Shown: positions 11,927 to 53,365 of the stretch, piece after piece
Layout: every line of letters starts with the position of its first letter
How positions within the stretch are numbered: the first letter of the stretch is position 1
Source: Stentor roeselii
Lineage: Eukaryota > Ciliophora > Heterotrichea > Heterotrichida > Stentoridae
Assembly (NCBI GenBank): GCA_006503475.1
Contig: RSEH01000082.1
Coordinates: forward strand, 1-64,000
DNA: 64,000 nt
Direction: 5' to 3'
Notes under the pieces: generated by a model
Database searches by the model: none
Seen by the model: only the letters and a program-made list of their open reading frames with translations
Told to the model about the DNA's origin: nothing
Program-made: the position numbers and the translations under genes

Positions 11927-12682
11927 ATGGAAGCTAAAAATGAAACAACCGAGGTCAAGGCTAACTGCTCATCAATCGATTGTGAGGCAGTCTCAGTGGA
12001 AAAATTTTGCAGGATTTGCTTCGAAGTCGAAACTAACGAAGTTCCAACGATTTCTCCCTGTGAATGTAATGGATCTATGAAGTACATCCATGAGGAGTGT
12101 TTAAAGAAATGGATACTCACTCGTACTGATAATCCTTCGACTTTCATTTGTGACATTTGCAAAAGTCCTTTAGAGATGGAAATGGATTCAAAATTGGCCT
12201 TTTCATGCTCTCAGATGAAAAATGAACTTTTCAAAATTATAGTATTTCCGATCGTTATCATAGTGATCACTACAATAATCGTCTTGATTTTCATATATTT
12301 ATGCACTCCAAAGAATACCTCAAAGATATCGACAGGCGCCAAAGTTTATTTAGCTATTGTGATGACTACTTGTTTTTCAATTGATAGTGCCTTGATTGTT
12401 ATGTTGTACAAATCTTTTAAGATAGGGTGCTTTCAGTATCGCGTTTTATCCTGGAAGATATTGAATAGTAAACATAAAGAAATCAATACTACTGAAATAA
12501 TTGAAATCAGGGAACAACTTGATGAGATAATTGAAGGAGTTAATTCATTTAGCTACTTTGATGAAAGTTTTAACAAACTAAACAATAGTAGCAATGCTAA
12601 AATTTATCCTGCTAGCTTATCTGAGCGGATCATAAGAAGTGTTCAACAAAATGACTTAACTGTTGAGGAAACTAATCAATAA
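11927..12682 (+). CDS. RING-CH (MARCH-type) membrane E3 ubiquitin ligase
   Basis: A 251-aa protein with a RING-CH (C4HC3) finger at residues 28-79. Its ligands appear in CRIC (28-31), CEC (45-47), the His in IHEEC (55-58) and CDIC (75-78), and a Trp sits in KKWI. Two transmembrane helices follow (about 103-127 and 140-163). This is the MARCH layout: a cytosolic finger that recruits E2, and membrane helices that choose membrane-protein substrates for ubiquitination, usually in endosomes, ER or plasma membrane. The C-terminal 85 residues are cytosolic and polar. The ATG at 11927 is the only one before the finger that leaves a sensible N-terminus. The gene is isolated, with spacers over 1 kb on both sides. 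Confidence 0.9.
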   Translation: MEAKNETTEVKANCSSIDCEAVSVEKFCRICFEVETNEVPTISPCECNGSMKYIHEECLKKWILTRTDNPSTFICDICKSPLEMEMDSKLAFSCSQMKNELFKIIVFPIVIIVITTIIVLIFIYLCTPKNTSKISTGAKVYLAIVMTTCFSIDSALIVMLYKSFKIGCFQYRVLSWKILNSKHKEINTTEIIEIREQLDEIIEGVNSFSYFDESFNKLNNSSNAKIYPASLSERIIRSVQQNDLTVEETNQ

Positions 12683-14365: not shown

Positions 14366-15769
14366 CTACCTAAGTAAATGCCCAGAATGCAGCAATAATT
14401 CACACCTTTTATGAATATCATTTTTCTCATTCAAGCAAACAATACAAAACTGTTGATTTCTAGAAGTGCAAACAAAAGCATTATTATTTCTGAAATCAGT
14501 TCCACAATATCCACAAATCATTCCTTGATCCTTATCCTCATCATGAGGAAATTCGAGTTTAATCAAACACGACCCTTCATGTTTCGCAAGTTTGCAATAA
14601 AAGCATCTTTCAAGAATACATTCACATGCCAAGTCAGCCATCAAGTAACAATTGCACCTCAAGCAAGTCCTACTTACCTCTTACAAACTATCATCCTTAA
14701 AAAGCACGACGCTAGTCAAGCAGCTAACACAAGCAGCGTCTCCATTTGCAGAAAGCAGCTCTCGATACCTAAAAACTCCATTACAAACATGGCAATAAAC
14801 CTCAAAATTCATGAAACTTTCATAGCAACTTCGACACATCTTTGAATTCTGATAAGCCACAAGCTCTTCATCACTTGTGGCCTTTCTACATCGAGAGCAA
14901 TAACTCGGCTGTAGAACAATCAAATCATTCAGAGTCTCTGATAAAAGCTTGAAGTCAGCTCTTTGGTCTTCATCTACTTCAAGCATCATGGAGAGAAGCC
15001 TCACCATTTTCGGGTAGCTATTTCGGAAACTATCTAAAATTCTTTTCAAATTTTGAGAAAGATTGTTCAAAGTTTTGAGTTCGTTGGAATAGTTCAGGCT
15101 CATCATAAAAAGAAAAACTATTCCGAGGGAATAAACGTCTGACTTGAAAGGGTTGTGTTCTGCAACCATCACGCCTGTTAAGATGGATTGATTGAAGGCG
15201 TATCGTAACTTTGGACTCAAGAAACTTGGAGTCCCCGCGATGGTGAATTCGCTGCGATTTAAGTCGTTTGCTGTGACTAGCCTGGCTGAGCCCAGGTCGC
15301 TGAGTTTCAAGACTTTTCCTTGGTCTTTGACAAGAATATTCTTAGCCTTCAAGTCACGATGACACATATTTTTTTCTTGCATATATAAAAGAGGTGAAAT
15401 CAACTGCCTCGCATATTCCAAAAGCTCTAAATCTGACCATGGAGCATTTCTCAAGCGACGGTCTCTCACAAGTGATTCCAAGTCACCCTCTGGGTAGTAG
15501 TCCATTATGATGATCACTGAATCAATTGTTTGATTCGGACCATCAAATAAACAGCTCCTGACTTGAATGATGTTCGGGTGCTCCAGGCGGCTCATTGAAA
15601 TGATTTCCATCTGAAGGTCACTCGCTTCTTGAGTTGATCCCACGTAAAGTCTTTTCACGCAAAGGATTTCATTTGTCCGTCGGTGTCTGGCAGTGTAGAC
15701 CTTCACGAGGTTTTGGTTTTGGTAAATTGTTTGAAGCTCTTCCAGGTCTTTCAAGGTGATTCTCTCCAT
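14366..15769 (-). CDS. protein kinase with C-terminal zinc-binding tail
   Basis: The spliced protein has 462 aa. The kinase domain covers residues 1-290: ATP-binding Lys39 in LCVKRL, Glu55, catalytic HRDLKAKN (Asp139, Asn144), and a DLG (Asp158) in place of DFG. GTPSFLSPK stands for the APE region, and SDVYSLGIVFLF is helix F. The N-lobe lacks a clear Gly-rich loop. After residue 290 come repeated CxxC pairs (SYCSRCRKA, KMCRSC, YCHVCNG, ACVSC, RCNC, RCFYC, ICGYCG, FCIVC), suggesting several treble-clef or zinc-ribbon folds. The kinase should be active, because the catalytic residues are present. The substrate is unknown. The tail probably binds a protein partner. A 15-nt intron joins the two frames. 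Its promoter is shared with the divergent E2/U-box gene. Confidence 0.85.
14670..14684 (-). other. 15-nt spliceosomal intron
   Basis: On the minus strand it reads GTAAGAGGTAAGTAG and contains an in-frame TAA at its 5' end. Its removal joins KDDSL to TCLRCNCYLMAD and restores the Cys-pair pattern of the kinase tail. Confidence 0.9.
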
Positions 15770-16090: not shown

Positions 16091-19000
16091 ATGAGTAACC
16101 CTAAGCTTGAATGTGCTGTTTTATATCTTTCTCAGAAAAAGACTATCTTTGCAGAATCTTTTGAAAAGCTCTGCTTACAAACAAAGCAGAAATTTTCAAT
16201 AGATCAAAACACTTGGCTGATCTTTAATATCGAAGGCAGTGAAATCGACGAAGACAGTTTTGAAGAATACAGAAGTATGAGAATAAAAAGAGAAATCATA
16301 GTCACAACTCAAAATCTTCACTCATCAACAACAATAGAAGAAATGATTTTTTTCACAGTCCTACCAAATAACAACAAGCGAAGTCTAAGCATCTCCTCAT
16401 TAACCTACTTATCAGAATTATCATTATCAATAATCCATCAACTCGGAGAATCCCCTTCAAAACTAACCTGTTTCCTTTATTCTAAAGATGGACAACCTCT
16501 ATCTCCTAGTTTTGAATCATCCCAATTTTTGAAGATTAAAGAGACAATAGAGGTCGAATCAGAAATTCAAGTAGTTCTAACCCGAAACATTTATGATAAT
16601 AAAAAACTTTCAATTCCCGATTACCAAAGACGAGATGTTGTCTCAGTTATTTTTAAATATAACTTGAATCATAAAAATATTCTTACTAATCAAGCAAAAG
16701 ATAATAAAAAGACTTTAAAAGATCTGATTGGGCTGAAGTTTGGAATACCAAGCTCATCGATTCAACTGGAGTCTGAATATGAAAGTCGTGACATAAGATT
16801 TTCAGTTATTGACCATAAACCTAAATTAAAGCTAGATGAATATAACACTTTAACTCCTCAAACAGAAAAAGGTCTTAGAATCTTCGTGAATTTCTTATAT
16901 TGTCTTCAATTTCACTATCATCAAAAAAAAGATAAGCTACTTTCATGTATCAGGTATTTAATTAACCACAACCCGTTACTTTATGGACTAAATACTCTTT
17001 TGATTCCACAAACTTTTATGGAATCAGAACTAGTTGCTATTGAAGAAGGGTTTTTTGAGCTTTTCAAGTTTCTGGCACAATTTCTTCGTCTTGAAATTCC
17101 AGAAGATCAATTATTTGAGAATACTTTAGAGTTTTTTTCATACCTTTTTGATATTTGTGAACATGAAAATTTCAATAAACATGAGGAAATTGAAACTAAA
17201 GTGATTCATGTAACTTTTAAAATAAGAGACCCAGTTATCAGGTTTAATAATGGTCAAGAAGAAATTTTTGATAAAACAGATGAAGATAATTTGAGAAATG
17301 AAGGAATTGATAACTTGAAAATTATCAGTAATAAAGAATTGAAAATGCAAATAAATCGGACGTCTGGGGTGGAAAGAAGTGAATTGAGTGTGTTTAGAAC
17401 TGTCTTTGACCCAGATTATAGCATTAGTCATATTCTTCGAGATCTACCTTTGATAACTAGTATTCAAGATCTTTATACTTTAAGGAAAAAAAGGATTGTT
17501 ACGCAATACACAAGCTACTTAGACTTAAAAGTGAAACTTCGATACAAAACTCTTACAATTAATAGGCAAAGCATGATAGTTGTCAACTGTGGACAACTTC
17601 AATGCTCAAACGCTATTCTACTCAAAGACTACTTTAAATCCAAAGATTACGATCCGATTCCTTCCTCTTTATCATCATCCCATAACGATAATTCAGTTTT
17701 TTTTCCAGAATTACTTAAAAATTCATTTCTTTCCAATGTCCAGAAGAACTTTTCAAGAAATCCAGAAGAGGCAATCGCAGTTATAATCGATTCAAGCGGG
17801 TCAATGTTAGAGCCATTTCAAGAAAGCGGAAAAAATCGACTAGCAGTGGTAAAAGACTTATTTAATTCTTTTGTAAACAGGACAATTGGGTATAACTTGC
17901 CCCAAGTGATTTCTTTGGCAACTTTCAGCGATTCAGTAGTTAAAATCTCAGATTTCACAGAAGATGTTTACAGATTTTGCGATACTCTTGATAAAATTGA
18001 TGCTTCCGGACGAACTTCTTTATATGATGCAATTTTTTCAGCATGTGAAAATTTAGTAGTTTTACAGAACAAGTACCAGCAGGCAAAGTTAAGAATTATT
18101 TGCTTTAGTGATGGGTATGACAATAATTCTTCAATAAATGAAATGGAGCTTTTAAAGAATTTGATTGAAAAAGGTATTGTTTTGGACAGTGTCAATATTG
18201 TGAATAATTGTTATATTTTGAAAAATTTGTCTTTTGCTTCAGGAGGTTTCGCGTTTTGCTTTGATAGTATTGATCAAGGATTCTCGATATTTGAATCTGA
18301 TGCTTTTATCTCACTTTCTTTTCGACATCCTGCAGAACTTTTAAAAATAAATTCAGCTAATGAAATAAGACTTGATTGTTTATGTCCATTCACGGAAATA
18401 CCTCCTCCAATCAAGTACCCAGGCCAACTCAATCTTGAAGTATCTGAACTAATTGCTTCTTTGATGACTTTTAATATCATCAGGTCGAAATTTAGCAGCT
18501 CTTTGAGTTCACTTCGATTCAAAAGAATTAATAGAGAAATGGTAGGAATCCATAAAAATCCGCATCCAGATATTGAAATCTACCCTTGCGACCTCGACAT
18601 CCAATTTTGGAACGGAATCCTTCACGGTCCTTGCAAAACAGCCTACGAATCAGGAAACTTCCAATTTTACATTCTATTTCCTGAAGAATACCCTTACAAG
18701 CCACCTGAAATCCGTTTCGTAACCAAATTATTCCATTTAAACATAAACTCATCAGGAAGAATCTGCATATCAGTGCTAAATAACGACTACAGTCCTGAAT
18801 ACTCAATTCGAAAGCTTTTAGATTCCATTTACGGTTTGTTCATGAATCCAGAAGATGAAGACTCGATTGAGACGAATTCTGCGAATTTGTATCGAAATTC
18901 AAAAGAAAGGTATTTTTTAGTTGCTCAAGATTGGACTAAAAGGTTCGCAGGGAAAAGTGTTGAAGAGATATTGAGAGGTGTTAAACAAAAAGAAGTTCAA

Positions 19001-19237
19001 AGTCAAATACCGAAAGAGTTTTTATGCTCACTTTCTCATAAGATTATGGAAGACCCTGTCACTGTTGTTAGTTCGAAAATTACTTATGAAAAATGTGAAA
19101 TCGAAAAATTTATTAGGCAACATGGGATTGAGCCTTTTACTAAACAGCCTGTTAGTTTAAATGATCTTTTTCCGGAAAAACACCTGCTTATCAGGATACA
19201 AGAGTTTAAAAAGTATTGCAGTGGAAGTGATTATTGA
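16091..19237 (+). CDS. single-chain E2-E3: ubiquitin-like N-terminus, vWA, UBC (E2) and U-box
   Basis: A 1048-aa protein. Residues 1-75 and about 80-165 look like ubiquitin-like or CIDE-N-like folds (for example IEGSEIDEDSFEEY), and a third may follow near 175-265; this is inferred from pattern only. A vWA domain starts near residue 562 with an intact MIDAS motif (DSSGSM, Asp567). A full E2 domain covers about 810-965: FPEEYPYKPPEIRF, then HLN for the usual HPN (Asn kept), then catalytic Cys892 in GRICISVL. The usual Trp after it is Tyr. A U-box covers about 973-1040 (IPKEFLCSLSHKIMEDPV, PFTKQP). E2 charges and U-box ligation functions thus lie on one polypeptide, with vWA as a likely metal-dependent binding arm. 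It ends in TGA. A decayed copy of the E2/U-box end lies downstream. Confidence 0.88.
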   Translation: MSNPKLECAVLYLSQKKTIFAESFEKLCLQTKQKFSIDQNTWLIFNIEGSEIDEDSFEEYRSMRIKREIIVTTQNLHSSTTIEEMIFFTVLPNNNKRSLSISSLTYLSELSLSIIHQLGESPSKLTCFLYSKDGQPLSPSFESSQFLKIKETIEVESEIQVVLTRNIYDNKKLSIPDYQRRDVVSVIFKYNLNHKNILTNQAKDNKKTLKDLIGLKFGIPSSSIQLESEYESRDIRFSVIDHKPKLKLDEYNTLTPQTEKGLRIFVNFLYCLQFHYHQKKDKLLSCIRYLINHNPLLYGLNTLLIPQTFMESELVAIEEGFFELFKFLAQFLRLEIPEDQLFENTLEFFSYLFDICEHENFNKHEEIETKVIHVTFKIRDPVIRFNNGQEEIFDKTDEDNLRNEGIDNLKIISNKELKMQINRTSGVERSELSVFRTVFDPDYSISHILRDLPLITSIQDLYTLRKKRIVTQYTSYLDLKVKLRYKTLTINRQSMIVVNCGQLQCSNAILLKDYFKSKDYDPIPSSLSSSHNDNSVFFPELLKNSFLSNVQKNFSRNPEEAIAVIIDSSGSMLEPFQESGKNRLAVVKDLFNSFVNRTIGYNLPQVISLATFSDSVVKISDFTEDVYRFCDTLDKIDASGRTSLYDAIFSACENLVVLQNKYQQAKLRIICFSDGYDNNSSINEMELLKNLIEKGIVLDSVNIVNNCYILKNLSFASGGFAFCFDSIDQGFSIFESDAFISLSFRHPAELLKINSANEIRLDCLCPFTEIPPPIKYPGQLNLEVSELIASLMTFNIIRSKFSSSLSSLRFKRINREMVGIHKNPHPDIEIYPCDLDIQFWNGILHGPCKTAYESGNFQFYILFPEEYPYKPPEIRFVTKLFHLNINSSGRICISVLNNDYSPEYSIRKLLDSIYGLFMNPEDEDSIETNSANLYRNSKERYFLVAQDWTKRFAGKSVEEILRGVKQKEVQSQIPKEFLCSLSHKIMEDPVTVVSSKITYEKCEIEKFIRQHGIEPFTKQPVSLNDLFPEKHLLIRIQEFKKYCSGSDY

Positions 19238-20099: not shown

Positions 20100-21180
20100 A
20101 GATAAGTGATGAGAGCGTCAAATTTTTTAGAATGTTTGGAATGCCCAGTTTCAAATCTTTTATGAAGACCAGTAGTTTACTTGGAAATGATTAAATCAAC
20201 TAGTCGGTCTATCAGAAAAAGATTGGATTTTATTTATTTTATTAACTGAGTGATAAGGTTTCACACTATTGTACTACTTTCCAGACTCTTTTTTACCATC
20301 TTATCCTAACAGAGTCAGAGCTTATAATATTAAAATAATTATTTTACCGAATATTCCACAACTTATACTCCCAAATAACTAAACTATAAAAGACAAGCCT
20401 ATTGAGTTCACTTAATAATTCTTCGCTTTCCTCTTGAAGGTTTCAAAAGAACTCTTCCAATCAAGTATCTTCACCAGTTCAACATAATCTCCTATAAATA
20501 TATCCTCTCTCTTCCTATTCACCCTAAAGACTCCAAATCAGCAGCCTCAAAGTTGTCTCATTCAAAGAATAACCGATGATAGATCTGATGTTAAAGATCA
20601 TTGATGAAGTAAGGTATCCAGTTCTGAAAATAATTCTTATAAATCTTCAATACCTCCTAAAAAAGACAACTTCCATTTTTTCATATCATTCTCTGAAGAA
20701 TACCTTGAAAGCCTGGTAAAATTCGCTTTATGACCAGGACTGACCCTCTAAAGATCAAGTCTTCTGGAAATATCTGTATTTCTGTTGTAAATAGAATTTA
20801 AGTCTTAAAATTACCATAAAATAATTTAGTTTGATTTTTTACTGCTTATTCTCACTGAAGAAGATGCTGAATTCATTCAAAGTACCACTGTTGAACTTTT
20901 GAAGTCACAGAGAAAATGATGTTGTAGAAGTGGACTGGGTGATTTCAAGGTAGACCTGTTGAGGAATTGATTTTTGGTATCAAGCAGTGAATTGTTGATC
21001 ATTTTTCTGAAGATGTAGTGTTTCAGTTTATTAGATAGATCGTGGATACCTTCTTGTTGTTTTAGAATAGAGCCAGTTAGGAAAGAAAGGAAATTGAAGA
21101 ATTTATTAGGATTTGCCATAATCCTTGTCGATATTAAACAACCAGGACCTAACTCTAAATTCTCACCCCTTTCAAAAACT
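20100..21180 (+). pseudogene. decayed second copy of the E2/U-box gene
   Basis: Pieces in shifting plus-strand frames follow the order of the intact gene upstream. LPIKYLHQFNI (about 20458) matches PPIKYPGQLNL before the E2. FISFSEEYLESL (about 20680) matches FYILFPEEYPYK. KIKSSGNICISVVN (about 20752) matches INSSGRICISVLN around the catalytic Cys. EDAEFIQSTTVELLKSQRK (about 20861) matches EDEDSIETNSANLYRNSKE. EIEEFIRICHNP (about 21088) matches EIEKFIRQHGIEP in the U-box. Many stops and shifts lie between. It is a tandem duplicate that has lost function. A minus-strand open frame at 20877-21191 is its antisense shadow. Confidence 0.8.
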
Positions 21181-23875: not shown

Positions 23876-24949
23876 ATGAAATTAGAAGAAATATTAAAAC
23901 AATGTGAACTTCTCGATTCTCTAAATCACATCAACCGCGCTTTGAAATCACGAAAGGCAGACCAAATCACAGAAGTTCATCTAAAAAAATTCTCAAATCT
24001 TCTGAAATCCTCTTTTTTTTGCATAGATCTCAAGACCTACCCAGTTCTTTGTGAAATTTGTCAGGCGGAACCTGCGAGTGACTCGATGATTTTAAGCTGT
24101 TCACATGTTATCTGCTCTGAACAGTGTCTTCTTGCATGGCTTGATCATCAACTAGAAGGCAACTATCACTTATTCGATAAAGCTCAGTGCATTTGTGGAG
24201 AACTGATAAACAGAGCGATAGTGATTAAAGTTCTATCGAATATTGAAGGAATTGAATCGAAAAAAAGAGAATCTGCTTTTAACTCCGAGCCAACAAGTAG
24301 CTGTGCGATTTGTTATAAAATTAAGAAAATTTCAGAATTTATCACATTGGACTGCGACCATCGCTTTTGTAAGGACTGCATTGAGAACTATGTTCAAGAA
24401 AATATTAGACAAGGGGTCTGGGGTGATCGACTTGGGTGTCCGAGCTGTTCAACACCCATTGACTTCAACATCATTAACAGTCTTCTTGATAACTCTCTTC
24501 AAAGCTTGTATCATCGACTTTCCCTTCGTGGTCTAGAACTGAAAGATGAGATTTTGTTTCAATGTCCTCAGGGCTGTAAATTCGCAGAAGTCGTTTCAAA
24601 GGATTCTGAAACTTCAAAATGTACTGAATGTAAAATAGTCTTCTGCATTTCGTGTAAAGACCAGGAACACCCGAATCAATCCTGTGAGAAAAACAGAAAA
24701 CTTAAAACTTTCATCTCTGACCCACTTTTAAAAGAAAAATTCGAAAATGGACTGTTAAAATATTGTCCTTGGTGCATGGCTGGAGTAGAAAAAGACCCTC
24801 GAGGCTGCAAGTACATGACTTGTCATAGTCCTGAATGTAAAGGAAAAAAGTACTTTTGCTTTGATTGTCTTGTTAAACTCAACAAGTTTCATGAGAAGCA
24901 TGAATGCAAAACTCCTGAAGTACAGACAAGGGAATGCCGAATTTTTTAA
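23876..24949 (+). CDS. RBR (RING1-IBR-RING2) E3 ubiquitin ligase
   Basis: A 357-aa protein. RING1 begins at CAICYKIKKISEFITLDC and holds HRFCKDC and GCPSC (about residues 142-202). The IBR follows (CPQGCKFAE, CTECKIVFCISC, HPNQSC, about 228-272). RING2 (about 299-345) reads CPWCMAGVEKDPRGCKYMTC, and in this family the Cys of the GCxxMxC motif forms the thioester with ubiquitin, so the enzyme should be active by the RING/HECT hybrid route. An extra Cys/His block before RING1 (CEICQAEP, SCSHVICSEQC, CICGEL, about 61-118) looks like a degenerate additional RING. No auto-inhibitory ubiquitin-like domain is seen. The ATG directly abuts the TAA of the preceding reading frame. Confidence 0.9.
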   Translation: MKLEEILKQCELLDSLNHINRALKSRKADQITEVHLKKFSNLLKSSFFCIDLKTYPVLCEICQAEPASDSMILSCSHVICSEQCLLAWLDHQLEGNYHLFDKAQCICGELINRAIVIKVLSNIEGIESKKRESAFNSEPTSSCAICYKIKKISEFITLDCDHRFCKDCIENYVQENIRQGVWGDRLGCPSCSTPIDFNIINSLLDNSLQSLYHRLSLRGLELKDEILFQCPQGCKFAEVVSKDSETSKCTECKIVFCISCKDQEHPNQSCEKNRKLKTFISDPLLKEKFENGLLKYCPWCMAGVEKDPRGCKYMTCHSPECKGKKYFCFDCLVKLNKFHEKHECKTPEVQTRECRIF

Positions 24950-45698: not shown

Positions 45699-48600
45699 AT
45701 GTTTTTGAGTCTTTTGATCAAATTCCCTTTATTTAGAGCTTTCAGCATAAATGATTCATGCATATTGATTAGTGACTCAACGCCAAGTGATCTCCAACTG
45801 TTCTTTCCATCACAACACAAAATGAATCTTGAAAATATATCCCTTGAAAACGCGGTCGAATCCCTTTCATCCAAAAATTTCTTATTCCTAATAGATCTTA
45901 CCTTCAAAAGAACCTTTACCCATATGATAAACACTCTAAGTTCCACACTTGAAGTATCATATCTTTCCCTCTTCGAGGTTGATTCCACATCTAAAAACCG
46001 TCAAGAAGTCCACATCTCTTCAATTCAAGAATTCAATCAAATCATGTCTCTTTTCCATCATTTAAATATCGACTCATTCACAGTCCTTTCATCTGCAAGT
46101 CATTCAGATTCAAAACTTTCTCAAAAATTTGAATCGATTCCAAAAGTAAAGATTTTTTATTACTCAGACCAAATCACTGAAAAAGCTGCAGAGAGCCTTG
46201 TAGTAAAAATACTGAAAACTCAAGGTTTGAAATACGTTCTTATCATAGACAGTTCTCCTTCTTTTCAAATAATTGAGTCAACTATTAAAAAAAAACATTG
46301 GGATAAACCTGGAGTTGTTTTGGTTTATTCAAGTAAATGCATCAGTTTTTCAAGGGTACTGGGAACTTTGCAAGTCACTGAGGAAGGGACAGAGGACTCG
46401 AGAAGTGAAAGTGAATTTCATTATAAGGCTATTTTGAATTTAGTGAAAATAATCGACTCGAAACTGAAGAAGATAGAAGATGAAAATAAAATATCAAGAA
46501 TGAATATTTTTCAAGTCATGAAAAATTTGACTTTTCCTTCAGTTAAATTAGTAAATTTCAAACCTGAATCAGAGATAGTTGGAACTTTCGACATATCAAA
46601 CTCATTATTAACTGTTCATTCCACGATTCTTTTCCCTGGGAACACTTTTAGTTTGACATTGAACCCAAGATCAACGATAAAATTATCAATGGCGAATGGT
46701 ACCAATGAGCCTTATTACTTTACAACGATTTCTTACATCGGTTTGTTATACCAAGGAGCGAACTACGCAGTGTCTTTATTCAATAAAAAAAATGAAATCC
46801 CAAACTTCGACCTTCAACTAAACCCGACTGATTGCGGAATTTTTTGGTATGAGCCGAATTGGTATTCTTCATGTTTCGCTCCTTTGATAAGTGACTTCGG
46901 TATCGGATTTATTACTACAATTTTTGGAGAATCTTTAAAAGGAAATATTTTTACTTTGAGGTCATTAAATAAGGTAGTTCCTCATGTTTCACCTTTGGGT
47001 GGAAGTATCGAAACTGATAATAAATCTGTTTATCCAGAGCTAGTCAAACTTGAAGCGACTTTTGAAATTTTTACATCTTCGATGATTGTAACGTTAATGT
47101 CATTAGGATATAGAGATATTATTTTTATAGCTTCGAATGATACTACTGTGTTTCAAAGATATAAGAATTATAAAGAAATTATTGAAAAGAATGGCATGAA
47201 AATCGTGAATGATGAAGAAAGTAGGTTTTTGAACTGGCTTTATCATAGAGATAATTTCACCTTGTATGAAGAGATGTTTAAAAGAATAAAAAAGACGAGA
47301 TGTACTTTGGTGTTCATTGATATCAATGATCCTGCTATGGCCCTTGAAGCTCTTTATGATGTCGGATATAGAACTGGAGAGATTCTTTACTTTGGATACT
47401 CTTTAATTCTTAACTTTTTAGAAAATATCAATGAACCCTATCGAAGTAAAAGAATCGAAATGGTCTCAGGGTCTCTTATATTCGCTTATAGAGAATATGT
47501 AGGCATGTATGGATTAGAAATAAAAAAAGCACTACTTCAAATTTCCTCAGAAGTCGGTTATATGTGCATGACTTTTGATACTGTTTCTGTATTTAAAGAA
47601 GCGATTAATTACCTCTTGGCTGTTGGATCGGATTTTGAAGACTATCAACAGTTGATTAAGTCTATTAGGATGAATCGATTTGTAGGATGTGTGGGAAATG
47701 TTTTTTTTGATTCGGATGGAAATACTCGAAGCTCGGCACAGGTTCTTATTCAACAAGTTCATTATAACTTAACTGTTGAAAAACTTCAATCAACTGATAT
47801 TGCATTTTATGATCGATTCAGTACAGTGCTGTATAACCAATTCCATGAATATGATTGGCCAACTGGATCGATGCCTCTAAATTTTATACCGGTTGTAGAA
47901 TGTTTTTCAGATTCTAAAAATGATCATGAGTCAGATGAAGGAAAAAAACTATTGTATTATTTGAGCATGGGTTTATTCATAACAACTTTATTATCTGGTT
48001 TTTTCTCTATTTTAAAAAACAGATCTTCATTTCAAGAACTAAAAGAAAAATCAGTTATATCATTTGAAGATATGATCTGCTATTCATTCTTTTTTCTTGA
48101 ATTTTTACAGCTAGTAGCTATGGGGCCAGACCAAGATGTATATAAAGAAATAACAAATAACATAAACTTACTATTTTCCTTCGATTGGGATCAATACTTT
48201 TCCTTTGAACACGAAAAGTTTTGGCTAATGTTTTACTCAATTTTAACCCTTTGCATTTTATGGGTAATTGTCTCAGTAATTAAATTGACACATGCTGATT
48301 TTTGTTTTCCTGAGTCAATTAGAAGCAGGTTTACAAGTCTTTTAAACCTGTATTTATATTTAATCGGTCATCTTTTATTCCTTCCTTGCACATCAATGAT
48401 CTTTAACGTATATTCCTGCTATCGTGCAACAGAAACTACCCTTGAAGATACTTATCTGAAGCAAGATTGTCGAAAGCACTGCTATAAAGGTAATCATAAA
48501 GACTTTGCAATATTATCCTATGTTGTTCTTACATTCTTTTTAGCTTTGGTAGTCTATACCCGCCCAAAACTTCAAGATTTTTTTTCTTTTCTTCACATAA

Positions 48601-49079
48601 AAACAAAGCCTTTTTTTCTAATAATCGAAACTTTTTTACATGTTGCATTAGTGATCTTGAATAAAACATTGAAAAGAGAAAATCAAATAACTCATGGAAT
48701 CGTCATGTGCATTGTTCTTAGTCTTTTTTTAGGTTTTACTTACTTTTATAAACCTTATAACTTCAAAAGGCCTTTCATTTGCCATTGTGGATTCATTATT
48801 GCAAGTATTTGGGCTATCCTTACTTCAGTTATATTTCACAGAATGGATCAACTTAGGGTATGGATAATTGTGGAAATGATAGGATTGATCATAATATTTA
48901 TCTTAATGTTAATCGTCATTAAGAAATACCCAGAAATTTTGTACTCGGAAAAAGGGACTGAGATTTCAAGTTTGTTCATTTTTCAGTTCTGTAGAGACTA
49001 TGAGAAGCGCTTGAAAAGTCTTGAAGACCTTGATTTTTTAGCTGAGAATAAGTACGCTATACCAGAATCAAGTAGATAG
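45699..49079 (+). CDS. receptor-like protein, periplasmic-binding ectodomain and nine hydrophobic segments (copy 1)
   Basis: A 1126-aa protein with a signal peptide (MFLSLLIKFPLFRAFS). The ectodomain (about 20-750) shows alternating beta/alpha segments like type-I periplasmic-binding or ANF-receptor ligand domains. The clearest is the second lobe (SLGYRDIIFIASND, KIVNDEESRF, TRCTLVFIDINDPAMALEAL, MCMTFDTVSVFKEAI). The membrane part (about 755-1085) has nine hydrophobic segments, including LYLYLIGHLLFLPCTSMI, a CRKHCYK loop and the segment THGIVMCIVLSLFLGFTYFY. It ends in a short cytosolic tail. It probably senses an extracellular small molecule or peptide at the plasma membrane; the ligand and output are unknown. 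It is a tandem paralogue of the next gene, about 60% identical by eye. Confidence 0.8.
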   Translation: MFLSLLIKFPLFRAFSINDSCILISDSTPSDLQLFFPSQHKMNLENISLENAVESLSSKNFLFLIDLTFKRTFTHMINTLSSTLEVSYLSLFEVDSTSKNRQEVHISSIQEFNQIMSLFHHLNIDSFTVLSSASHSDSKLSQKFESIPKVKIFYYSDQITEKAAESLVVKILKTQGLKYVLIIDSSPSFQIIESTIKKKHWDKPGVVLVYSSKCISFSRVLGTLQVTEEGTEDSRSESEFHYKAILNLVKIIDSKLKKIEDENKISRMNIFQVMKNLTFPSVKLVNFKPESEIVGTFDISNSLLTVHSTILFPGNTFSLTLNPRSTIKLSMANGTNEPYYFTTISYIGLLYQGANYAVSLFNKKNEIPNFDLQLNPTDCGIFWYEPNWYSSCFAPLISDFGIGFITTIFGESLKGNIFTLRSLNKVVPHVSPLGGSIETDNKSVYPELVKLEATFEIFTSSMIVTLMSLGYRDIIFIASNDTTVFQRYKNYKEIIEKNGMKIVNDEESRFLNWLYHRDNFTLYEEMFKRIKKTRCTLVFIDINDPAMALEALYDVGYRTGEILYFGYSLILNFLENINEPYRSKRIEMVSGSLIFAYREYVGMYGLEIKKALLQISSEVGYMCMTFDTVSVFKEAINYLLAVGSDFEDYQQLIKSIRMNRFVGCVGNVFFDSDGNTRSSAQVLIQQVHYNLTVEKLQSTDIAFYDRFSTVLYNQFHEYDWPTGSMPLNFIPVVECFSDSKNDHESDEGKKLLYYLSMGLFITTLLSGFFSILKNRSSFQELKEKSVISFEDMICYSFFFLEFLQLVAMGPDQDVYKEITNNINLLFSFDWDQYFSFEHEKFWLMFYSILTLCILWVIVSVIKLTHADFCFPESIRSRFTSLLNLYLYLIGHLLFLPCTSMIFNVYSCYRATETTLEDTYLKQDCRKHCYKGNHKDFAILSYVVLTFFLALVVYTRPKLQDFFSFLHIKTKPFFLIIETFLHVALVILNKTLKRENQITHGIVMCIVLSLFLGFTYFYKPYNFKRPFICHCGFIIASIWAILTSVIFHRMDQLRVWIIVEMIGLIIIFILMLIVIKKYPEILYSEKGTEISSLFIFQFCRDYEKRLKSLEDLDFLAENKYAIPESSR

Positions 49080-49981: not shown

Positions 49982-52900
49982 ATGCGCCTAGAAATCTTTC
50001 TCAAACTACAGCTAATTGTTGCCTTGAGTATAAAAGATTCATTAGTTCTCACAAGCGATTCAACTCCAATGGGCCAATTGTTACTCTTTCCAGCGGAGCA
50101 GGTACACAACATACAAAATCTTTCATTTGAAAATGCAGTTAAATCTATTCCATACAAAAACTTCTTGTTTCTCGTAGATTTGACCTATTCCCAATCATTC
50201 AACCATCTAATCAATTCAATTTCCTCATATTTCGAAGTAGCTTACCTTTCCCTCTTCCATATTGACTCAAAATCAAAAAAACGCTTGGAAGTTCACATGT
50301 CTCCAGATCAAGAATTTGAGTTGATTTTATCCCTGATAAGTTTTTTAGGACTTGATTCATTCACAGTTCTTTCTTCCTCTGACTGGAATGACTCAAGACT
50401 AGCTGAAAAATTTAAATCAAAAAAAAATGTAAAGATTTTTTATTACTCAGACAAAATAACTGAAACAGCTGCTGAAAGTTTAGTTTTAAAAATTTTGAAG
50501 ACTCAAGGTCTCAAATATGTCGTTTTAATTGACAGTTCTTCATCTTTAAATAGAATTGAGAAATATATGGAAATGAAAAGATGGGATAAACCAGGAGTAG
50601 TTCTTATTAGGACCAGTCGATGCACTAGTGACTCTCAGATAATCGGAACTTTGCAAATATCAGAAGAAGGGACAGAAGGTTCTAAAACCCTTTTCGAATA
50701 TCACTATAAGTCAATCCTTAACTCAATAAATCGAATTGATAATCAACTATCAACCACCTTCAAAAGCAAGATTTCCCAGTCAAATATATTAGAAACCCTT
50801 CAAAAGCTTTCTCCAATATCAGTAAATTTAATCAATTTCAAACCTGAATCTAAAAAAATCGGAACATTCAACCTTTCAAGTTCCTCATTAAATATAAATT
50901 CAGATATTTTATATCCAGGAAACACTTCAAGCTGGACATTGAACCCAAAGTCAACAATAGTTTTATCAATAGCAAACGGAACCCACGATCCTTATTACTC
51001 AAGTACCAACACCTACGCTGCTTATTTGATGAATGGGGCGAATTATGCAGTTTTAAGAAGCAACAAACAAGAAGAAATTCCAAAATTTGAAATAAAGTTA
51101 AACCCGAATGACTGCGGACTTTTCTGGTATGATGCAAGATGGTACACCTCATGTTTCTCTCCTTTAGTCCATGATATAGGCATAGGTCTTATCACTACTA
51201 TGTTCAGCGAATCACTTAAAGGAAATATTTACAGTTTAAGAAGTTTAAACAAGATAGTCCCTCATGTTTCTCCTTTAGGAGCCAGTCCTGAAACTAATAA
51301 TCAAACAACTTTTCCAGAGCTAGTCAAACTTGAAGCGACTCCTGAAATTTTTTCTTCTTCTCGAATAGTATCAATGATGGCTTTAGGATATAGAGATATT
51401 ATTGTTATTGCTACAAATGAATCAGCGTTGGTTTCCAGGTATGAACTTTATAAAAGTATTATTGAAAAGAATGGGATGAGAATTGTAAATGACGAGAACA
51501 GCAGGTTTTTGAACTGGAATTACCATAGAGATAATTTTAGCTTATATGAAGATTTGTTTCATAGAGTTAGAAAGACTAGATGCACCTTAGTGTTGATTAT
51601 GACCTATAACCATGGCATGGTCCTTGAAGCTCTTTATGATGTCGGATATAGACAAGGCGAGATTTTGTATTTGGCTGATACCGGCACACTTAACATCTTA
51701 AACAATATTCCTGAACCTTTTCTCAGCAAAAGAATTGAAATGGTTTCAGGAAGTCTGATATTTGCTTATCGAGAATTTGTTGGTGATTATGGAATGAAAA
51801 TAAAAGAAGAACTTTTAGAGATGTTTCAAGAAGTTACTTTTATGTGTATGACTTTTGATACTTTTTCTGTATTTAAAGAAGCGATTATTTACCTTTTGAA
51901 TGTCGGGGCTGATTTTGAAAATTACGAAAAGTTGATGAAGACTATCAGGATGAATAGATTCACAGGATGTCTTGGAAATGTTTTTTTTGAATCGAATGGA
52001 AATACTCGAAGCTCAGCTCAAGTTTTGATTCAGCAAATAATTTACAATTCAACTGATAAAACATTGAGAACGATTGATATCGCTTATTATAATCGGTTTA
52101 GTTCTTTATTATATGATCAATTCAATGAATTTGAATGGCCTAATGGCTCCATGCCTCCGAATTACATTCCAAACCCGAATTGTTTAGCTGAGTCAAAAAA
52201 TGAACAAGAGTCTGTTGAAGGTAAAAAAATTTTGTACTTATTGAGTTTTGGGTTATTTTTAACTACTGCCTTAAGCGGAATTTTTTCTTACTTTCGAAAT
52301 CGGGAGACTTTTGAAGTTTTAGAACGAAAAATCATCATTTCGTTCGAAGATATGATTTTTTACTCGTTTTTCTTTCTGGAGTTTTTGCAGGTTATCGCCA
52401 TGGGACCAGACCAAGACGTTTATAAGGTTCTCACTGATAATATAAACTTGTTTCTTTCTTTTGATTTAGAGCAGTACTTTACATTTAAATTTGAAAGATT
52501 TTGGTTCATGTTTTACGCTATTTTAACACTTTGTGCTTTTTGGATACCTTGTTCTGTTATAAAGTTAACAAAAGTAGATGAATATGTTCCTGAAATAATT
52601 CGAGATAATTTTAAACTTTACTTGAATCTCTTTTTGTATCTTATCGGACATCTTCTGTTTTTGCCCTGTACTTCAATGATACTAAATATTTATTCTTGTT
52701 ATCGAGGAACAGGGGATGATATTCAAGAAAGTTACCTGAAACAAGACTGCCATAAGCACTGTTATAAAGACTATCACAAAAATTTTGCAATAATCGCCTA
52801 CGTTATCTTAAGTTTCTTCTTATCCTTAGCAATTATAATCCGGCCAAAGTTTCAACATATCTTTCCATCACATCACATAAAAATAAAGCCTTTATTTCTG

Positions 52901-53365
52901 ATAATCGAAACCTGTTTACATGTCACTCTGGTGATCTTGAATAAAACCTTAAAAGAAGAAAATCAAACAACTCATGGAATAGTTTTTTGTATCATTATTT
53001 GTTTATTTTTAGGTTTTACTTTCTGGTATAGTCCTTATAACTTTAAAAGACCTTTGGTATGTCATTGTGGGTTTATCGTTACTAGCTTGTGGGCTATCTT
53101 TACTTCGACAGTGTTTCATGGAATTGATCAGGTTAAAATTTGGATTGTTGTTGAGGTTATAGGGTTGATGGTCTTACTTATTTTAACGATTATCATTTTC
53201 AAGAGGTGTCCTGAAGTGCTTTACTCGGAAAAGGGAACTCATATCTCGAGTTTGTTTATTTTTCAATTTTGCAAGGACTATGATAAAAGATTGAAAAAAC
53301 TTGAAGAGATTGATTCTTTACCAGGGAATAAGTATATCATTTCAAATTCTCCTAGATATAGATAA
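49982..53365 (+). CDS. receptor-like protein, periplasmic-binding ectodomain and nine hydrophobic segments (copy 2)
   Basis: A 1127-aa protein, collinear with copy 1 over its full length with almost no gaps. The signal peptide is MRLEIFLKLQLIVALS. Shared blocks include ILKTQGLKYV, NYAV, LKLEAT-type ELVKLEATPEIFSSSR, FLNW.YHRDNF, EALYDVGYR, VSGSLIFAYRE and RMNRF.GC.GNVFF. The membrane part keeps HLLFLPCTSMI, CHKHCYKDY and THGIVFCIIICLFLGF, and the tail keeps LYSEKGT.ISSLFIFQFC. Differences are densest in the first ectodomain lobe, as expected if ligand choice has diverged. It has the same orientation as copy 1 and is followed by a decayed third copy. Confidence 0.82.
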   Translation: MRLEIFLKLQLIVALSIKDSLVLTSDSTPMGQLLLFPAEQVHNIQNLSFENAVKSIPYKNFLFLVDLTYSQSFNHLINSISSYFEVAYLSLFHIDSKSKKRLEVHMSPDQEFELILSLISFLGLDSFTVLSSSDWNDSRLAEKFKSKKNVKIFYYSDKITETAAESLVLKILKTQGLKYVVLIDSSSSLNRIEKYMEMKRWDKPGVVLIRTSRCTSDSQIIGTLQISEEGTEGSKTLFEYHYKSILNSINRIDNQLSTTFKSKISQSNILETLQKLSPISVNLINFKPESKKIGTFNLSSSSLNINSDILYPGNTSSWTLNPKSTIVLSIANGTHDPYYSSTNTYAAYLMNGANYAVLRSNKQEEIPKFEIKLNPNDCGLFWYDARWYTSCFSPLVHDIGIGLITTMFSESLKGNIYSLRSLNKIVPHVSPLGASPETNNQTTFPELVKLEATPEIFSSSRIVSMMALGYRDIIVIATNESALVSRYELYKSIIEKNGMRIVNDENSRFLNWNYHRDNFSLYEDLFHRVRKTRCTLVLIMTYNHGMVLEALYDVGYRQGEILYLADTGTLNILNNIPEPFLSKRIEMVSGSLIFAYREFVGDYGMKIKEELLEMFQEVTFMCMTFDTFSVFKEAIIYLLNVGADFENYEKLMKTIRMNRFTGCLGNVFFESNGNTRSSAQVLIQQIIYNSTDKTLRTIDIAYYNRFSSLLYDQFNEFEWPNGSMPPNYIPNPNCLAESKNEQESVEGKKILYLLSFGLFLTTALSGIFSYFRNRETFEVLERKIIISFEDMIFYSFFFLEFLQVIAMGPDQDVYKVLTDNINLFLSFDLEQYFTFKFERFWFMFYAILTLCAFWIPCSVIKLTKVDEYVPEIIRDNFKLYLNLFLYLIGHLLFLPCTSMILNIYSCYRGTGDDIQESYLKQDCHKHCYKDYHKNFAIIAYVILSFFLSLAIIIRPKFQHIFPSHHIKIKPLFLIIETCLHVTLVILNKTLKEENQTTHGIVFCIIICLFLGFTFWYSPYNFKRPLVCHCGFIVTSLWAIFTSTVFHGIDQVKIWIVVEVIGLMVLLILTIIIFKRCPEVLYSEKGTHISSLFIFQFCKDYDKRLKKLEEIDSLPGNKYIISNSPRYR

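Follow-up and report, generated by a model that had tools for sequence, protein, structure and literature searches.

A ciliate gene family that joins a vWA domain, an E2 ubiquitin-conjugating domain and a U-box on one chain: a candidate single-chain ubiquitin ligase

As a rule, contact between ubiquitin-conjugating enzymes (E2) and their RING or U-box ligases (E3) is brief, because E1 and E3 use overlapping faces of the E2, which must be recharged in between. Several proteins have been described in which these functions, or parts of them, reside in larger chains. UBE2O is described as carrying E2 and E3 functions in one chain, and E2 domains inside large proteins were reported for BIRC6/BRUCE and for fungal PARPs (PMC2964712, PMC11354881). 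The combination of a vWA domain and a U-box on one chain is on record for Mb_UBOXa of Monosiga (PMC3087547) and a CrPUB of Chlamydomonas (PMC4378952). An engineered chain in the PDB (8v0d, UbcH5B-RING3(MIB1)) consists of a UBE2D-type E2 (residues 2-147 of 237) followed by a RING domain, which shows that an E2-RING chain can be made.

The window, i.e., the whole stretch of 64,000 nucleotides analysed here (contig C507), contains a gene which brings together an E2, a U-box and a vWA domain on a single chain. This fusion, originally predicted from the DNA letters and their open reading frames, was confirmed: translation with the standard code gave zero internal stops across 1048 codons, and VWA_2, UQ_con and U-box, in that order, were the three Pfam domains above their curated cut-offs in the window protein. 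From the N- to the C-terminus, a poorly matched N-terminal half is followed by the vWA domain with an intact MIDAS, the UBC (E2) domain and the U-box (Table 1). If TGA were read as tryptophan, the protein would gain 8 residues; TGA as a stop is favoured, because one E2 gene of the genome, which we would call UBE2H-like, terminates in TGA.

Table 1. Positions in the window of the fusion gene and of the parts of its product
Feature	Positions	Strand	Basis
Whole fusion gene	16091..19237	+	one ORF, 1048 codons + TGA stop
Residues 1-75, possible beta-grasp (CIDE-N/PB1-like) domain, unproven	16091..16315	+	sub-threshold CIDE-N
Residues 85-165, conserved segment around (F/L)YSxDGxPL motif	16343..16585	+	four-paralog alignment
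Residues 255-370, conserved middle region, family-specific	16853..17200	+	genome searches
Residues 370-425, site matching zf-Nse/U-box-like segment of L005; eroded in window copy	17198..17365	+	
Residues 560-745, vWA with complete MIDAS	17768..18325	+	VWA_2 1.6e-10
Residues 805-955, UBC (E2): Cys892, Asn884, Tyr900, Glu903	18503..18955	+	UQ_con, UBE2D structures
17-residue linker, UBC to U-box	18956..19006	+	
Residues 973-1041, U-box	19007..19213	+	Pfam U-box 5.1e-14

The genome (44.4 Mb, 522 contigs) was searched with the window protein, and at least 38 places were obtained. Among the matches listed were four full-length loci (the window locus, C207 with 47%, C112 with 45% and C152 with 31% identity), a fifth copy on C124 in two pieces (L004), 29 places with mainly the UBC part and 2 with the U-box part alone. 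Uninterrupted frames, 1069, 1070 and 1113 codons long, were also read at the other three full-length loci, each on a different contig, and vWA, UBC and U-box each scored over the Pfam cut-offs in all three of these paralogs (L002, L003 and L005). With the N-terminal half alone of two paralogs as query, only family members were returned from the genome (5 of 5 and 4 of 4 places). The C124 copy appears broken, since no N-terminal half was found at C124 and its UBC part is split by a stop-containing stretch, which is flanked by repeated CAAGG. Another decayed E2 fragment lies upstream (L004, 300-784). The window itself also contains a decayed E2 fragment at 20653-20813 (+), given as 20670-21110 by the genome search, which shows about 70% DNA identity over 129 bases to 18656-18782, with stops present; it is probably what is left of a tandem duplicate.

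In a tree of 30 E2 domains of the genome (26 non-fusion domains and those of the four intact fusions), the four fusion E2s formed one group with a support of 90/89, found in 90% of the bootstrap trees and just below the 95/80 mark; when the C124 row was added, the same grouping had a support of 95/90. The fusion clade was placed apart from the UBE2D of the same genome, to which the fusion UBC is about 33% identical; deeper forks of the tree were weak. One fusion, followed by duplication, would be the simplest history. Substitution ratios were calculated by NG86 for L003 and the C124 pieces, which are the closest pair, other pairs being saturated or not computable. Values of dN/dS were 0.133/0.741 = 0.18 over 418 codons (the part preceding the vWA, the vWA itself and the beginning of UBC) and 0.075/0.81 = 0.09 over 196 codons (remainder of UBC, and U-box), which mostly reflect L003 and the past of C124, since the latter copy is probably broken now; YN00 ratios were lower. 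These ratios show purifying selection on this pair. Scans of viral and prokaryotic contig collections yielded no relatives; other ciliates lay outside their scope, and the viral scans were of small reach, because they returned no viral E2.

The vWA domain was recognized as VWA_2 at residues 563-675 (1.6e-10, over the Pfam cut-off); NCBIfam gave weak vWA matches only, far under their cut-offs. The residues D567, S569, S571, T642 and D674, which we take to be the five MIDAS positions, do not vary among the four intact paralogs, in agreement with the intact MIDAS upstream of UBC that had been proposed. VWA_2 matches in the genome numbered 34; in six other vWA proteins which were scanned with Pfam, two of them cut by the fetched stretch, neither a UBC nor a U-box domain was detected at E up to 0.001.

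A UBC fold, expected near residues 810-965, is present: UQ_con matched residues 812-946 with 8.5e-35 and 119.8 bits (cut-off 27), and among the best 60 of 327 matches to the whole protein the closest solved structures were those of UBE2D/Ubc4 over the UBC part (8e-32). The catalytic Cys892 (codon at 18764-18766) and the Asn884 of the HPN motif are intact, as had been read from the window copy, and are the same in all four intact paralogs, as are H882 and the helix-1 residues K811/R812, which presumably face E1. For a comparison of altered positions, numbered after UBE2D (Phe62, Asp87, Trp93, Ala96) and assumed to have the same roles as there, a table was compiled from five fusion rows (the four intact copies and C124) and 26 non-fusion rows; the latter came from the 29 UBC places, of which two were not fetched and one was the weaker of two at a single locus. 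Cysteine and asparagine were retained in all five fusion rows. Trp93 is replaced by tyrosine in the window protein (P0001, Tyr900), L002, L003 and C124, compared with tryptophan in all 26 non-fusion rows and in L005; the exchange noted after the active cysteine is thus real. In the same four rows Ala96, which we assume to lie in the E3-facing loop, is changed to glutamate (Glu903 in the window protein), a residue found there in none of the 26 non-fusion rows. Phe62 is tyrosine or serine in these four rows, likewise in 4 of 26 non-fusion rows, and Asp87, after the active cysteine, is serine, as also in 6 of 26. The glutamate for Ala96 and the serine for Asp87 are oddities beyond those listed in the original prediction. 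L005 has kept phenylalanine, tryptophan and alanine, with HCN for HPN and alanine for Asp87. The change of HPN to HLN in the window protein is also real, but as a sign of specialised chemistry it is weak evidence and appears unremarkable, since the proline is absent in 7 of 26 non-fusion rows. A separate observation concerns five of the 26 non-fusion E2-like rows (L038, L044, L045, L050 and L051), which are without the catalytic cysteine and have retained the tryptophan; the last four form one clade. From their sequences, these five are candidates for inactive E2 variants.

The U-box scored 52.6 bits (Pfam cut-off 21.4), and its structural relatives were LubX, Ufd2, plant U-boxes (PUB) and CHIP, with values of 1e-8 to 1e-6 for LubX, Ufd2 and the plant proteins. 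A hydrophobic residue is kept at position 981 (L981; isoleucine in L005), presumably the place where U-boxes contact the E2. Position 983 is histidine in the window protein, lysine in L002, L003 and C124, and glycine in L005; Pro1020 is present in all but L005.

Less could be assigned in the N-terminal half. Residues 14-57 matched CIDE-N below the cut-off, with E = 0.04 for the whole protein and 0.0019 for the fragment (18.6 bits; cut-off 23.5), and L002 gave a sub-threshold match at the same place (E = 0.0086); Pfam scans of the N-terminal fragments of L003 and L005 showed no CIDE-N match. In the segment around the conserved motif, Y130, S131, D133, G134, P136 and L137 are invariant across the four intact paralogs, and a fragment scan of residues 85-172 with Pfam gave no match. 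Profile searches of the N-terminal half against PDB sequences returned nothing useful (one chance-level match, E = 0.12), and AlphaFold without alignment was uninformative for residues 1-300 (pLDDT 35). Since AlphaFold without alignment failed also on domains that are certain from sequence (pLDDT 32 for the vWA-UBC-U-box part), its result for the N-terminus is no evidence against a beta-grasp fold. The ubiquitin-like folds that were suggested for residues 1-270 are, with these data, not established, and mimicry of ubiquitin by them finds no support: the CIDE-N match is weak, and the window protein had no ubiquitin match in Pfam at E up to 1, for which reason a ubiquitin precursor at the N-terminus was also rejected. 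A ubiquitin-family match in L005 was below the cut-off (E = 0.015). Oligomerisation through a CIDE-N/PB1-like domain is a guess. L005 (G000:C152) has in addition, at residues about 430-480 before the vWA, a zf-Nse match below the cut-off (E = 0.0012; hhalign probability 18%). This zf-Nse/U-box-like segment is eroded in the other three intact paralogs, and a Pfam fragment scan of the window copy gave no match to it; the second segment of L005 may be the mark of an ancestral layout with two U-boxes.

Other genes in the window were noted in passing. A kinase gene on the minus strand carries a 15-base GTAAG...TAG intron at 14670-14684; when it is skipped (read by hand), the frame is restored and continues, past what at first looks like a stop, into a Cys-rich tail. 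Very short introns and stops of the standard code are consistent with a heterotrich ciliate such as Stentor, as far as the account in PMC9505925 goes. The genes at 23876-24949 (+), with RING plus IBR (IBR 2.7e-8, RING 2.9e-8), and at 11927-12682 (+), with RINGv (1.8e-14), are possible further ubiquitin-ligase genes by their domains. A tandem pair at 45699-49079 and 49982-53365 (+) encodes proteins of 1126 and 1127 residues with an ANF-receptor ligand-binding domain (1.6e-8 and 2e-10).

With regard to function, we favour, with moderate confidence, the notion that the fusion protein is a single-chain E2/U-box ubiquitin ligase, whose vWA domain binds a substrate or adaptor and whose N-terminal half serves for oligomerisation or for placing the chain. 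If known E2/U-box enzymology applies, Cys892 would be charged by E1; the U-box, tethered 17 residues downstream, would then dock on the UBC domain of its own chain or on that of another copy in an oligomer and promote the transfer of ubiquitin to lysine. The vWA domain might hold the substrate or adaptor via its metal site, the recruitment of substrate that the original prediction gave to it being an inference, and the N-terminal half might set the oligomeric state or the placement of the chain. Arguments for a single-chain ligase are the three domains scoring over cut-off within one frame, the single group formed by the fusion E2s in the tree, the same order in four full-length loci with invariant catalytic and MIDAS positions, the invariant K811/R812, the hydrophobic character of position 981, the dN/dS values of 0.09 and 0.18, an N-terminal half confined to the family, and the precedent of an engineered E2-then-RING chain (8v0d). 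The self-contained conjugation unit of the original prediction therefore stands as the best reading of one chain, four intact loci of the same order and a low dN/dS in the closest pair. Against a ligase, the exchanges Ala96 to Glu, Trp93 to Tyr and Phe62 to Tyr or Ser in the window clade could weaken docking of the U-box, and Asp87 to Ser could alter or reduce transfer to lysine; L005 has a canonical E3-facing loop but lost the U-box proline at position 1020.

These altered residues bear also on other explanations. An active E2 could be merely co-localised with a U-box which serves other E2s, the UBC domain working with other E3s; the intact cysteine and E1-facing residues, a U-box canonical enough for a free E2, and an E2 loop that may misfit a U-box would be compatible with this, yet UBC and U-box are adjacent in 4 of 4 intact loci and the lowest dN/dS was obtained there, so that we regard mere co-localisation as unlikely. 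The UBC domain could also be a modified or pseudo-enzyme, one that carries another modifier, prefers acceptors other than lysine, or serves chiefly as a scaffold. Tyrosine at the position that is tryptophan in all non-fusion rows, serine for Asp87, leucine for the HPN proline, and the loss of the catalytic cysteine in five of 26 other E2-like rows of the genome point in this direction; cysteine and asparagine in 5 of 5 fusion rows, the tryptophan of L005 and the low dN/dS make such a change of function rather improbable. That adjacent genes were read as one, through an error of gene model or assembly, could be considered since no transcript was seen and an adjacent gene has a 15-base intron; this candidate was rejected, with hardly any probability left to it, on account of the 1048 codons without a stop and the same order in the longer frames of three other contigs. 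A variant of the single-chain ligase, which we put forward as a doubtful possibility, is that the E2 loop (Tyr869, Tyr900, Glu903) and U-box position 983 have co-changed in the window clade so that the two domains pair only with each other; the E2/U-box pair would then ignore the free E2s and E3s of the cell. Pairing of Glu903 with His/Lys983 is a suggestion derived from a single branch.

Should the single-chain ligase prove correct, a natural chain of this kind, its linker short and several of its copies retained, would allow tests of how a tethered E2 is recharged and of whether an E2/E3 pair can be isolated from the remaining ubiquitin system. The protein could perhaps become a one-piece ubiquitination tool.

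Compared with the known systems, the fusion UBC matches UBE2D structures along the whole domain and has retained cysteine and asparagine, but unlike UBE2D/Ubc4 it lies within a chain of 1048 residues and has tyrosine for tryptophan, glutamate for Ala96 and serine for Asp87. As predicted for the fusion protein, UBE2O and BIRC6/BRUCE combine E2 with E3 functions in a single large chain (for BRUCE-like proteins, as outlined in PMC2964712), whereas the combination with a U-box and a vWA domain is not matched by them; neither the window protein nor its three paralogs gave a BIR match in Pfam at E up to 1, and no Pfam match appeared for the UBE2O regions outside the UBC, for which Pfam may hold no model. 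Fungal clade 6A PARPs likewise possess a C-terminal UBC domain within a larger enzyme, but with a PARP catalytic domain instead of a vWA, and the part of PMC2964712 dealing with them does not mention a U-box. For Mb_UBOXa and CrPUB, the portions of PMC3087547 and PMC4378952 that treat these proteins do not mention a UBC domain. The chain in 8v0d differs in being man-made, with a RING in place of the U-box and without a vWA. Word searches of open-licence literature, with eukaryotic sequence and domain databases outside their scope, found no natural chain of E2 and U-box; it would not surprise us if the order vWA-UBC-U-box were already listed in InterPro or UniProt for other ciliates. We would place the fusion with the multidomain E2/E3 proteins.
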